This document shows, piece by piece, positions 33,959-38,940 of a stretch of DNA of 64,000 bases. This DNA is from an uncultured Prevotellaceae bacterium (GTDB taxonomy: Bacteria > Bacteroidota > Bacteroidia > Bacteroidales > Bacteroidaceae), in the NCBI GenBank assembly GCA_946406435.1, contig CAMJKP010000003.1:1-64000 (forward strand), given 5' to 3'. A program made the position numbers and the translations under genes. Within the stretch, counting starts at the first letter, position 1. Every line of letters begins with the position of its first letter. Below the pieces are notes generated by a model that saw only the letters and a program-made list of their open reading frames with translations, did no database searches and had not been told where the DNA came from.

Positions 33959-36505
33959 GTGAAGATTATGAACAAATCTACAAGCAAAATTTTGAGCATT
34001 CTTCTGCTCTTAATCGCAAGTGCCTCATGGACAGGCGCAAGAGCCGACGGTGGCTTTTGGGAAACAAAGGACGGTTGGTCATTTGACAACGGAAACGGTC
34101 TGTACTTTTTCATTGACTCGGAAGCAGGAACCGCCGTTTTGACAAACAGCGAAATGAAATCAGAGGGAAGTACCAAAGGTGCCAACTCATACAGTGGAAA
34201 CATTGACATTCCTGAAACTGTAACATTCAACGGCAATATATATCCTGTAGTAGGCATACAAGAATATGCTTTCTATAATTCTACAGGTTTGAGAACCGTG
34301 GCTATCCCTGCATCCATCACATCAATCGGAAGCCAGGCTTTCAGCGGATGTACAGGTCTTGAAGCTATCACTGTTGATAATCTGAACCCACAATATGCTT
34401 CTATCGGTGGCCTCCTTCTTAGCAAGAATCAGAAAACGCTCCTCTACTGTCCAGGTGGAAAGAGTGGCGAATGTGTAGTTCCAACAAAAGTAACAACCAT
34501 TGCAAACAATGCTTTTCTGAATTGTTCTAATTTGACAAGTGTCGTTCTGCCAGATGGAGTTACTTCTATTGGCGAAAGTGCTTTTCAGGGCTGCTCATCA
34601 CTTGCTTCTATCAACATGCCAGCATCTCTCACCACAATTGGCGATAATGCATTTTACGAAGCCCGTGCTCTCAGTTCAAAAATTGTAATTCCTTCAGGAG
34701 TTTTGACAATAGGTGCGTCTGCATTCCAGTATTGTACAAGTCTTAACAATGTTGTATTGTCAGAAGGTATTAATGAAATAAAGAACAACGCATTTAGAGA
34801 TTGTACTTCGCTTCAAAGCATACAGTTGCCTAGCACTGTAACTAGCATTGGAACCTATGCATTTGCGTACACTGGACTCACTTCTATCACAATCCCAGAA
34901 AAAATTACAGAAATCAAGTCTGGAACATTCGAGGGTGCAAAGCTTACCTATGTTTCACTTCCAGAAAATCTGACCGCAATCAAGAATAAAGCATTCTACA
35001 ATAACGGAACAACAATAGGCACACTGAACATCCCTGCAAGTGTTACTTCTATTGGCGATCTTGCATTTGACAAGACAACCATCAACGACATTTACGTAAA
35101 CAACACACCAAGGCATCTGCAGATAAGTATCTCTGACCCTTTCAATAAGGTATCTGGCATGCATATTCATGTTTTTACACAGATGGCAGGCATTTTCAGC
35201 AACAGCACACATTGGGATTCATACAGCGCATATTTTGTTGGAGATATTGCAATCAAGCATATCTCTACCGTCACATTGGATCAGGCAACACTTACATTGC
35301 CTACAAATACCATTTTCCAATTAAATGCATCCATCGCTCCTGAAGACGCAGATGTTAAGGATGTTGTATTCACAACTAGCAACCCAAATATCGTTGCAAT
35401 CGTCAACGGGGAGACAGGACAGATCAAGTCTGGTACTCAAAACGGATCTGCAACAATTACTTGTACAGCAGCTGACGGAACAGGATACTATGCAGAATGT
35501 GTCGTTACTGTCAACAACCAGTTCGTGCCAGCAAACAACATCACACTCAACAAGCAAAATTTGAAAATGAACGCTGGAACATCATTCCAGTTGAAGGCTA
35601 CTATATCCCCTGCAAGTGCAACATACAAGTCAGCAACATGGGAGTCTTCTGATGAAACTGTCGCAACAGTTGACGCAGACGGATGGGTACACGCTATCAA
35701 AGCAGGTAACGTAACCATCACCGCTATGTCTAAAGACGGATATGTAGAGACAACTTGCGAGATTACAGTCTCACACAGCACATACACCATCACAGATGGT
35801 GCGGCATACACAAATACCAAGACTGAAACTGCAACAACACTCAGCTACACACGTACCTTCAACAATACTGCATGGCAGGCTCTTTACATTCCATTCAGGA
35901 TGTCATACGACGACTGGAAAGACAAGTTCTACGTTGCAAAACTGCTCAACGTACATTCACACGACAATGATGGTGATGGCAAGGTAGAAGATATGGATGT
36001 CGAGATCGTCCGCATTACCGAAGGCACTCTTAAAGAGAATCACCCATATCTCATTAAGGCAATGAATACAGGCACGCAGACAATCACAATCAACGATGCC
36101 ACAATCTACCCTGCAGAGAGCAACTCTATCCAGTGTGCTTCCACAGAGCACATATGTGACTTCATAGGTGCATACGAAGTAACAAACGTTCCTTACGAAG
36201 GAGGTTACGTATTGAGTGGTGGCGAGTTCAAGAAGACAAACGAAAGCGCAACTATAAATCCTTGCCGTTTCTATCTGCAGATTACTGCAAAAGACGGTCA
36301 GCTTGTTAAGATCAACAATGCAAAGATTATCGAGTTTGACGAATTTGGAAACGAGGAGACAACTGCTATCAACTCTGTTGAGTCCGACCAGAACAACGTT
36401 ACAGAGATTTACAACGTTAATGGTATCAAGCAGGTATCAACAAAGCAGGGCTTGAATATCGTAAAGATGGCTGATGGTTCTGCAAAGAAGCTCTTCGTTA
36501 AATAA
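33959..36505 (+). CDS. BspA-like LRR_5 protein with Big_2-type Ig domains and a C-terminal T9SS-type tail
   Basis: Repeated 'xxIxIPxxVTSIGxxAFxxCxxL'; 'TFQLNASIAPEDADVKDVVFTTSNPNIVAI'; tail 'EIYNVNGIKQVSTKQGLNIVKMADGSAKKLFVK'. Confidence 0.9.
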   Translation: MKIMNKSTSKILSILLLLIASASWTGARADGGFWETKDGWSFDNGNGLYFFIDSEAGTAVLTNSEMKSEGSTKGANSYSGNIDIPETVTFNGNIYPVVGIQEYAFYNSTGLRTVAIPASITSIGSQAFSGCTGLEAITVDNLNPQYASIGGLLLSKNQKTLLYCPGGKSGECVVPTKVTTIANNAFLNCSNLTSVVLPDGVTSIGESAFQGCSSLASINMPASLTTIGDNAFYEARALSSKIVIPSGVLTIGASAFQYCTSLNNVVLSEGINEIKNNAFRDCTSLQSIQLPSTVTSIGTYAFAYTGLTSITIPEKITEIKSGTFEGAKLTYVSLPENLTAIKNKAFYNNGTTIGTLNIPASVTSIGDLAFDKTTINDIYVNNTPRHLQISISDPFNKVSGMHIHVFTQMAGIFSNSTHWDSYSAYFVGDIAIKHISTVTLDQATLTLPTNTIFQLNASIAPEDADVKDVVFTTSNPNIVAIVNGETGQIKSGTQNGSATITCTAADGTGYYAECVVTVNNQFVPANNITLNKQNLKMNAGTSFQLKATISPASATYKSATWESSDETVATVDADGWVHAIKAGNVTITAMSKDGYVETTCEITVSHSTYTITDGAAYTNTKTETATTLSYTRTFNNTAWQALYIPFRMSYDDWKDKFYVAKLLNVHSHDNDGDGKVEDMDVEIVRITEGTLKENHPYLIKAMNTGTQTITINDATIYPAESNSIQCASTEHICDFIGAYEVTNVPYEGGYVLSGGEFKKTNESATINPCRFYLQITAKDGQLVKINNAKIIEFDEFGNEETTAINSVESDQNNVTEIYNVNGIKQVSTKQGLNIVKMADGSAKKLFVK

Positions 36506-36513
36506 CAGATATT

Positions 36514-36717
36514 ATGAAGAAAAAAATATATATTCAACCAAAAGTCTACACGGAGCGTATGCAAATCTGTAACATTCTTGCAGGAACCTACGAGAACATT
36601 CACATCGATAATGGTGACAATGGCGGTAGCGGTCCTGGCGAAGAAGTAGGAGGAGGCGATGCTAAAATGTTTGGCAGCTTCGGCTACTTTGGCGACTGCG
36701 AGGATGAAGAATATTAA
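36514..36717 (+). CDS. Short 67-aa peptide, 'MKKKIYIQP...ILAG' N-terminal type
   Basis: ORF 8 bp downstream of the LRR protein; N-terminus aligns with the peptide at 38704. Confidence 0.7.
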   Translation: MKKKIYIQPKVYTERMQICNILAGTYENIHIDNGDNGGSGPGEEVGGGDAKMFGSFGYFGDCEDEEY

Positions 36718-36740
36718 CATCGTAATTAACAATTAAATAA

Positions 36741-36780
36741 ATAAGACTACGCGTGGCGCGTAGTCTTATTTTCTTTTATA
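36741..36780 (+). terminator. Rho-independent terminator
   Basis: ataagactacgcg-tgg-cgcgtagtcttat followed by a T-rich tract. Confidence 0.9.
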
Positions 36781-36957
36781 TAGATAGTAAAATCTACACT
36801 TATTCTACTTTTTTTGTTAATTTCTTCTTTTTTTCGACAAAAAATTTGGTCATTTCATAGGAAATTGCTAATTTTGTACCGATTTATATAGTATACCCAA
36901 CTCAAAAGAGGGAAGGAAACACTAATTCTAATGATATAAACAAAAAAACATACAGAT

Positions 36958-38682
36958 ATGAAAAAAAGACTATTACTTTTAGCTGCAGTTCTTTCTGCAA
37001 GTGCAAGTATTACATTTGCACAAGAAAAAACCGTGTATAGTGACGACAACAACATCACTTACACCTACTCCGCAAACTCTGATGTTACAATTACAGCGCA
37101 AGGTCAAAGTAGTTTAGACAGCGAGAACAACAGGGAGAATATAATATTGGGGTCAACATTATCAATCGACTATGTAGCCTTCACAAGGGTTGCAAACCGC
37201 ACCAGAGACATTAAGTTGACTGTATCAGACATCAACGACTATTCTATTCTCCCATCACAATTGCAAAGTTTTTCACGCGCGGTGGTTTCTGGTGAAGATC
37301 TAACAAATGACGATCTGAACACAACTCTTTCTTCTTTTGCAACCGACAACAGACTGAATTTCCCACGAACTCAACGAAATAATCTGCCTCCATCAGAGAT
37401 GTACTACAAAATAAGGCAGAACACAAATGCAGAAAAGGCCGCATACGCAACATATCAGAATGCATGCGAGAAAGCCAGAACAAGAGGTCTATACGTCTAC
37501 ACTGGAGCAGAGCTGCTTGAAGAAGGCGTAGATTTTGACCTTTATCATATGCAAATAAACGAAGGCTTGTATTATATTGATGCTCCTGATGCGGTTAATG
37601 TTATATTAATAAATGCAACAACAGGCAACTGGAAAGAGGGTACAACATACCTGAATTGTACCGACAATTTCATTCCTACCTATATTGGTTCTAACATCCC
37701 ATTGCCAACAACAACCGCATCAGATGAGGACTCAAAAGTTGGTATCGTATCAGGATTGGTAGATTTGGCAAGATTCAACAATATCGTTGCAGGTAAGGCA
37801 TTTTTAAACTATGACTTTACTGGTACAACAATTGTTGGTTCTATCAACAGCTCAACTGTAGGTGCAAACCGTCTTGCTTATTTTGCCGACGGAATTTCTG
37901 CAGAAGGTGTAAACATTATCAATGGAACAAGTTGTGAGAACTATGAACTTGCAGATGATGGTACAGAAATCAAAGTTTCAAAGGCCTTCAATGCAAAGAA
38001 CATTGACTACACACGTAACATCACAGCTGGTAACTACTACACAATTACCGTACCATTCAACTTCCAGAACAAGTCAGACTATTTCAACCGCACATCAACC
38101 TTCACTTCTTGTAATAAAGTAGGAGATAAGACACAGGTAAAGTTCACACTTGGTGAATGGGAGGCTAATATGCCAATGCTTTGTAAGGCAAACACAAGTA
38201 CCTCTGTAATGAGCCTTTCAAGCACACAGGGCATTGAGGTTAAGAAGTCTGTTGCAAAGTCATGGAGTGGTGATGAACAGTCAAGCGAGCCTGCTAAGTT
38301 CAATGGCAACTACGAAGCAAAGACCAAGGAAGAACTTGCAGATGCATACATCGTTGGTTTGAGCGGTACATTTGGTAAGATGCCAGTAAACAGCACAAGA
38401 CTCAAGCCAGGTCGCGCTTACATTACTCTTGATAAGAATTCTGCTGCAAAGCTTGAAAATGCTATTGTTGAGTTCGTTGACGAGGAAGGAACTGTAGAGG
38501 TTCTTGAGTTTAACGGAGAGACAACAGGTATCGACGGTGTTACAGATTCTGCTGATGAGGTTATGGATTCTCAGTTCGTTTCTATTGATGGTAAGGTTGC
38601 AACAACACCAGTAAAGGGTATTAACATCGTTAAGAGTACTCTTAAGAACGGACAGACAACCACAAAGAAAGTCGTATATTAA
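36958..38682 (+). CDS. Secreted hypothetical protein with C-terminal T9SS-type tail
   Basis: Signal peptide 'MKKRLLLLAAVLSASASITFAQ'; tail 'FVSIDGKVATTPVKGINIVKSTLKNGQTTTKKVVY'. Confidence 0.75.
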   Translation: MKKRLLLLAAVLSASASITFAQEKTVYSDDNNITYTYSANSDVTITAQGQSSLDSENNRENIILGSTLSIDYVAFTRVANRTRDIKLTVSDINDYSILPSQLQSFSRAVVSGEDLTNDDLNTTLSSFATDNRLNFPRTQRNNLPPSEMYYKIRQNTNAEKAAYATYQNACEKARTRGLYVYTGAELLEEGVDFDLYHMQINEGLYYIDAPDAVNVILINATTGNWKEGTTYLNCTDNFIPTYIGSNIPLPTTTASDEDSKVGIVSGLVDLARFNNIVAGKAFLNYDFTGTTIVGSINSSTVGANRLAYFADGISAEGVNIINGTSCENYELADDGTEIKVSKAFNAKNIDYTRNITAGNYYTITVPFNFQNKSDYFNRTSTFTSCNKVGDKTQVKFTLGEWEANMPMLCKANTSTSVMSLSSTQGIEVKKSVAKSWSGDEQSSEPAKFNGNYEAKTKEELADAYIVGLSGTFGKMPVNSTRLKPGRAYITLDKNSAAKLENAIVEFVDEEGTVEVLEFNGETTGIDGVTDSADEVMDSQFVSIDGKVATTPVKGINIVKSTLKNGQTTTKKVVY

Positions 38683-38703
38683 TTTAATAAGACAGATACA
38701 GTT

Positions 38704-38850
38704 ATGAAAAAAGAATATATCACACCAGAATTCAGACCAAGGAAAATGGCTGTAGAGGAGAGTCTTCTTGCAGCCATCTCGGAGAACGGAAACACCACAA
38801 CAGGTTATCTTACAGATGAACCTATTGACGATGATGATTTCGATGATTAA
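38704..38850 (+). CDS. Short 48-aa peptide, 'MKKEYITP...LLAA' N-terminal type (not in ORF track)
   Basis: Translation MKKEYITPEFRPRKMAVEESLLAAISENGNTTTGYLTDEPIDDDDFDD*; 21 bp after the preceding CDS. Confidence 0.7.
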   Translation: MKKEYITPEFRPRKMAVEESLLAAISENGNTTTGYLTDEPIDDDDFDD

Positions 38851-38900
38851 GTAAAAGATCTACGCATACATAATTTTATGTATGAACATCACAATAAAGA

Positions 38901-38940
38901 TAAAGAGCAGCAACCATTAAGTTGTTGCTCTTTATTATTG
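38901..38940 (+). terminator. Hairpin terminator
   Basis: aaagagcagcaac-cattaa-gttgttgctcttt. Confidence 0.85.

Follow-up and report, generated by a model that had tools for sequence, protein, structure and literature searches.

The short open reading frames that follow two secreted-protein genes in the window (the whole stretch of 64,000 nucleotides analysed here) belong to a peptide family that is under coding selection and present in many copies per genome; in most cases a member is the second gene of a pair whose first gene encodes T9SS cargo with a short CTD. What is new is this undescribed pairing of a T9SS cargo gene with a peptide gene, which suggests that the T9SS export route has a partner not yet described. 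We know of no cargo-specific T9SS companion, and the searches brought none to light. The peptide family was found described nowhere in the open-access literature; an earlier mention is possible, subscription papers and preprints having been largely outside the scope of the search. The window contains two such units:

33959..36505, + strand: cargo gene 1 (848 aa), with a signal peptide, BspA-type LRR_5, two Big_2 domains and a C-terminal short T9SS CTD
36359..36502, + strand: short CTD of cargo 1, with a cleavage-site-like TTAI, motif B YNVNG, a motif D of the GxN kind (GLNIV) and a basic motif E
36514..36717, + strand: companion peptide 1 (67 aa), MKKKIYIQP...ILAGT with a Gly/Asp-rich linker and an acidic tail, AKMFGSFGYFGDCEDEEY
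36739..36771, + strand: terminator-like hairpin after pair 1, with a 15-bp stem and a T-rich tail
36958..38682, + strand: cargo gene 2 (574 aa), with a signal peptide and a divergent CTD (GINIV...KK)
38704..38850, + strand: companion peptide 2 (48 aa), MKKEYITP...SLLAAIS with the tail DDDDFDD
38899..38936, + strand: terminator-like hairpin after pair 2 (16 bp), with a T-poor tail

Cargo 1 matches the Pfam domains LRR_5 (6.5e-72) and Big_2 (6.1e-24), and its C-terminus is matched by a CTD profile at 36350-36502 (E 4.7e-13); a Pfam search of cargo 2 found no domain, and its C-terminus is matched by the CTD profile at 38506-38652 (E 3e-5). An earlier note on this DNA had read peptide ORFs of 67 and 48 aa behind the two cargo genes, with gaps of 8 and 21 nt respectively; both are present at these positions, sizes and distances, and they score E 2.6e-16 and 1.6e-13 in a profile search of the genome. 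The terminators that the note placed behind each pair are likewise visible as hairpins, the second of which (-22 kcal/mol, z = -8.7) is absent from the output of a consensus terminator scan.

A single-sequence search of the window's genome returned the query alone, and a DNA pattern and then profiles were therefore adopted. The pattern ATGAAR-AAR-N(0-9)-TAY-NNNNNN-CCN, which encodes MKK-x(0-3)-Y-x-x-P, gave 31 matches in this genome, about half of them short ORFs of the same build, against 3 for the reversed pattern that served as control, and the profile search gave 21 peptide copies; the common N-terminus of the two peptides in the window is thus above chance. The layout of the family is MKKxYIxP...LLAxS, a variable Gly/Asp linker and a conserved acidic tail that usually contains Trp, with a median length of 58 aa and a net charge of about -5. 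Residues 1-26 (N-terminal consensus MKKxYIxPxxxVVxLxxxxLLAxS) comprise MKKxYIxP, hydrophobic residues at alternating and fixed positions and then LLAxS, with G and D rare. The linker contains 19% Gly and 12% Asp, and Trp accounts for 5.7% of the acidic last 18 residues versus 0.8% of the linker. Tail-Trp statistics were taken from a set of 208 peptides, not from the hand-picked alignment A5: 74% of these peptides have Trp within the last 20 residues, 215 of 238 tail Trp residues lie within the last 18 (129 +/- 7 in shuffles), and [LIV]W occurs in the tail 118 times, four times above the 27 in shuffles. The window's two peptides have no tail Trp, yet their tails are equally acidic. The leader-plus-variable-core layout proposed earlier therefore fits the N-terminus but not fully the tail, which has a conserved motif of its own (Trp, [LIV]W).

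An AlphaFold model of peptide 1 has an extended N-terminus (pLDDT 82-85 for residues 1-20, about 57-63 for the remainder), and no fold is predicted beyond it (pTM 0.21). The peptides have no Sec-type hydrophobic core, their median peak hydropathy being 1.16 versus 2.5-3.0 in the two cargo signal peptides. Because this hydrophobic signal is missing, a plain secreted peptide, one of the roles suggested in the earlier note, is unlikely and was set aside as a candidate. Pfam and NCBIfam searches of 78 members gave no family, just single unrelated weak matches, and the window's two peptides matched neither database. At one locus (L279, G183:C14:329978) the peptide frame continues without a stop into a secreted-nuclease-like sequence, possibly a fusion or a lost stop. 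At two others (L089 and L090, G000 contig C7) a repeated short ORF that begins with MKKARFNPEQG lies behind near-identical CTD genes and is perhaps a degenerate peptide.

Nearly every peptide copy is preceded by a gene whose product ends in YxLxGxxV...KGIYIVNGKKVxxK. The peptide profile is blind to context, and in the window's genome 18 of its 21 matches (including one tandem pair behind a single cargo gene) lie directly behind one of 62 CTD genes, as counted with a profile of that C-terminal end built from genes upstream of peptides. The three exceptions are found before a fimbrillin-like lipoprotein gene, beside unrelated genes and at a contig edge. An independent genome-scale check on 1.96 contiguous Mb of a related genome (76% of G211) placed all 10 peptides directly behind a CTD gene, with a binomial probability of about 3e-20 that assumes roughly 1,600 genes, an estimate. 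In the genus, 29 of the best-scoring 30 profile matches are behind a CTD gene; among 28 matches analysed in the family's genera, 24 are so placed by profile and 2 more by eye; and of the context-independent peptides, 76 of 88 follow a CTD gene. The gap between cargo and peptide has a median of 29.5 nt and is within 100 nt in 69 of the 76, some genes overlapping as ATGA, which is typical of coupled genes. A scan of named organisms found a CTD end, a stop and a peptide start in succession in at least 118 places; among the matches listed, nearly all carry the titles Prevotella, Prevotellaceae, Bacteroidaceae or Bacteroidales, and a single record that of Clostridium. As the earlier note had proposed, other genomes were examined for homologous short ORFs downstream of similar genes and for enrichment behind CTD genes, and both were found.

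A survey of the neighbourhoods revealed no recurrent neighbour apart from further cargo genes. CTD genes that lack a peptide are common (18 peptides for 62 genes in the window's genome; 10 of 18 genes with a peptide in G211), and in one place (G000 contig C28:3806-4131, L083) two different peptides stand in tandem behind one cargo gene. Nine exceptional loci, where the peptide is not behind a CTD gene, show mostly fimbrillin-like lipoproteins and no enzymes, on which ground a RiPP cluster at the non-CTD copies was rejected. Non-CTD peptides (L315:8142-8309, L317:5975-6127, L318:6807-7025, L319:7105-7227, L320:7706-7834 and L322:2010-2150) mostly adjoin FimA/Mfa-like lipoprotein genes, five of six directly before one, and the family may therefore serve surface proteins beyond the T9SS.

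The genes upstream of the peptides were examined for the features of short CTDs. Those described in Prevotella intermedia have a PT/GI-like cleavage motif, a motif B with Tyr and Gly, a motif D of the form GxY or GxN, a basic motif E and three strands (PMC11969387). The predicted products have ends of this form, of about 40-55 residues, with a TG/AI-type cleavage site, YxxxG, Gx[YN]I and a basic motif E, and the C-terminus lies a median of 42 residues beyond the cleavage motif. An AlphaFold model of the last 95 aa of cargo 1 has three strands (61-65, 78-84 and 89-94, pLDDT about 90), a three-stranded sheet and not a seven-stranded sandwich. In a Foldseek search this model had no significant PDB match. 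CTD structures of RgpB appeared only as weak matches (E 0.16-4.8). Among 18 CTDs tested, one weakly matches NF033708 and none matches Pfam. Since public CTD models miss these ends and RgpB is a weak match, the short-CTD assignment rests on motifs, length and model; on these it agrees with predicted T9SS cargo bearing short CTDs, as in P. intermedia. The translocon SprA/Sov is encoded in the window's genome and in 119 of 120 genus genomes. As the Pfam and NCBIfam models of T9SS sorting signals recognise hardly any short CTDs of the window's genome, automatic annotation must undercount its T9SS cargo.

Selection was assessed in pairs picked by similarity of the cargo, not of the peptide. Peptide identity is 0.845 where cargo identity is at least 70%, 0.72 where it is 55-70% and 0.35 for unrelated cargo, and pN/pS is 0.43 for the most similar cargo and 0.35 at 55-70%; the reading frame is therefore kept and travels with the cargo. 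In 26 similar pairs picked by peptide identity, which biases the values low, pN/pS is below 1 in all 26. The evolutionary rate of the N-terminus is about half that of the remainder (pN 0.10 versus 0.18-0.19). Co-divergence with the cargo and purifying selection make translation of the peptides very likely, to judge from their sequences. Gene order, gaps, genome-wide association, co-divergence and purifying selection strongly support the earlier suggestion of a presumably co-expressed peptide family tied to T9SS-type cargo, and the genetic coupling of peptide and cargo is nearly certain.

The profile search across relatives that the earlier note called for found peptides in 109 of 120 genus genomes (91%), with 1-24 copies each. 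These counts are low estimates, the profile being one that undercounts: a 26-row version listed 7 peptides in G211, where a 208-row version found 10 in 76% of the genome. In the wider family, peptides are present in 86 of 121 genomes; 81 genomes have both peptide and SprA, 5 the peptide only, 10 SprA only and 25 neither (Fisher 3e-13, a test that ignores phylogeny). A Bacteroidales sample has SprA in 139 of 148 genomes and the peptide in 4, so that the presence of SprA alone was rejected as the cause of peptide presence across the order. Just three other sampled genomes of the order have matches, one of which (G121) has 12 copies, most of them behind CTD genes. Thus, the T9SS works without peptides in most Bacteroidales, and the peptide is an accessory found in some lineages and does not belong to the system's core. 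Two near-complete genomes, G010 and G276, have 4 and 14 peptides and no SprA match, which may reflect T9SS loss or an assembly gap. In genus g10, three genomes (G356, G365 and G381) have SprA without peptides and several others have no SprA, suggesting separate gain or retention of the T9SS.

Each peptide is probably made together with its cargo, and it would stay in the cytoplasm, at least initially. Because cargo types and linkers vary but both ends are kept, docking to one shared factor is the most likely function: the conserved N-terminus would serve as leader or docking site for a single factor common to all copies, and the acidic, usually Trp-bearing tail would be the effector part. The docking step is a commitment from the anatomy of the peptides. 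In Prevotella-type bacteria, the peptide may in this manner tie the production of cargo to a stage in T9SS export, in anchoring or in its regulation. As a whole, an explanation by cargo-coupled leader-type peptides that dock to one shared cytoplasmic factor seems to us evenly balanced between right and wrong. That the peptides constitute a leader-peptide class, in which many unlinked cargo genes each have a peptide and a single recognition factor, acting in trans, serves the processing of all, is put forward tentatively.

A rather doubtful alternative sees RiPP-like precursors in the peptides: a PqqD-like RRE would bind the YxxP leader in trans, a leader peptidase would cut near LLAxS, and the acidic core would be modified and exported to give a product at the surface or outside the cell, co-ordinated with the cargo. 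The N-terminus resembles the LPP leader YxxPxVLxHQxIxFETxxS (PMC13381572), and [YW]xxPx[LVIAFYM] fits 69% of the peptides with M allowed and 48% strictly; YxxP is invariant in the collected set, but partly through selection, as it was required for entry. The sharp break in composition near residue 26, the slower evolution of the N-terminus and an A at -3 with S at -1 (A-x-S), which would suit a signal-peptidase-type cut, also favour a leader, but conservation of the tail is not what a free core would show. No modification gene (RRE, leader peptidase or modifying enzyme) adjoins the peptides in the neighbourhoods examined, and NCBIfam lasso/RiPP models gave no match beyond one at E 0.18. Scanning 76% of G211 with regular expressions turned up neither an SpI-like peptidase nor an RRE, but the housekeeping signal peptidase escaped as well, which makes the test weak. 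Since no enzyme adjoins the peptides and the RRE and peptidase scan of G211 covered 76%, they are assigned to no RiPP family.

The earlier note also mentioned a chaperone-like partner, and the peptide might be a cargo-specific cytoplasmic chaperone that keeps its own cargo export-competent before Sec. The peptide is small, acidic, adjacent to its cargo gene and co-diverging with it, but linkage alone also yields co-divergence; the cargo proteins are of many kinds whereas all peptides share their ends, no folded domain appears in the model and many CTD genes have no peptide, all of which make this role improbable. It is also unlikely that the peptide is a reporter of cargo load, a trans-acting signal of cargo output to a T9SS regulator such as a PorX/SigP-type pathway: the shared ends, the co-transcription-like spacing and the many cargo genes per genome would suit this function, but no regulator was identified. 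That short ORFs stand behind surface-protein genes by chance or have no function is extremely improbable: the peptides are short and their tails of low complexity, but purifying selection, conservation across many genera and the genome-wide association, with a binomial probability of about 1e-20 or lower, all speak against it. An RNA-level or chance-ORF reading was rejected on the basis of pN/pS.

In major bacteria of the mouth, gut and rumen the T9SS constructs the cell surface, and a family present in 91% of the sampled genus genomes, sometimes in 20 or more copies, and missed by Pfam and NCBIfam would add a layer to it. If such a leader-peptide class exists, T9SS cargo would come with a peptide product or export signal made alongside it and different from every known secretion partner, and if the leader feeds an RRE-dependent pathway, the peptides would join the YxxP-leader RiPPs as a new variety. 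The peptides may offer an experimental handle on the reason for the short CTDs of Prevotella cargo and on the matching of cargo supply to export, and may serve as a marker for T9SS cargo overlooked by current CTD models.

Type III secretion chaperones, small acidic proteins encoded beside exported cargo, resemble the peptides in size, charge and gene position; Sec carries T9SS cargo across the inner membrane, however, and the peptides are not predicted to fold. The bacteroidetocins, GG-leader peptides exported by C39 transporters (PMC10352776), are likewise short leader peptides of Bacteroidales, whereas the present peptides have another leader sequence, no GG motif and no neighbouring transporter gene. 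LPP/lasso precursors, whose YxxP leaders are bound by PqqD-like RRE proteins, share the N-terminal YxxP leader, the variable remainder, a length of 35-200 aa and the occurrence of several precursors per leader type (PMC13381572). They are found in Bacillota clusters with an RRE, a peptidase, a kinase and a transporter (PMC13381572), whereas the genes of this family stand one by one after T9SS cargo genes, without any of those neighbours. The report on short-CTD cargo of P. intermedia (PMC11969387) treats the cargo and its glycan anchor, its main text including no operon or small protein, and the likeness lies in the same C-terminal signal, which is here carried by the genes that precede the peptides.
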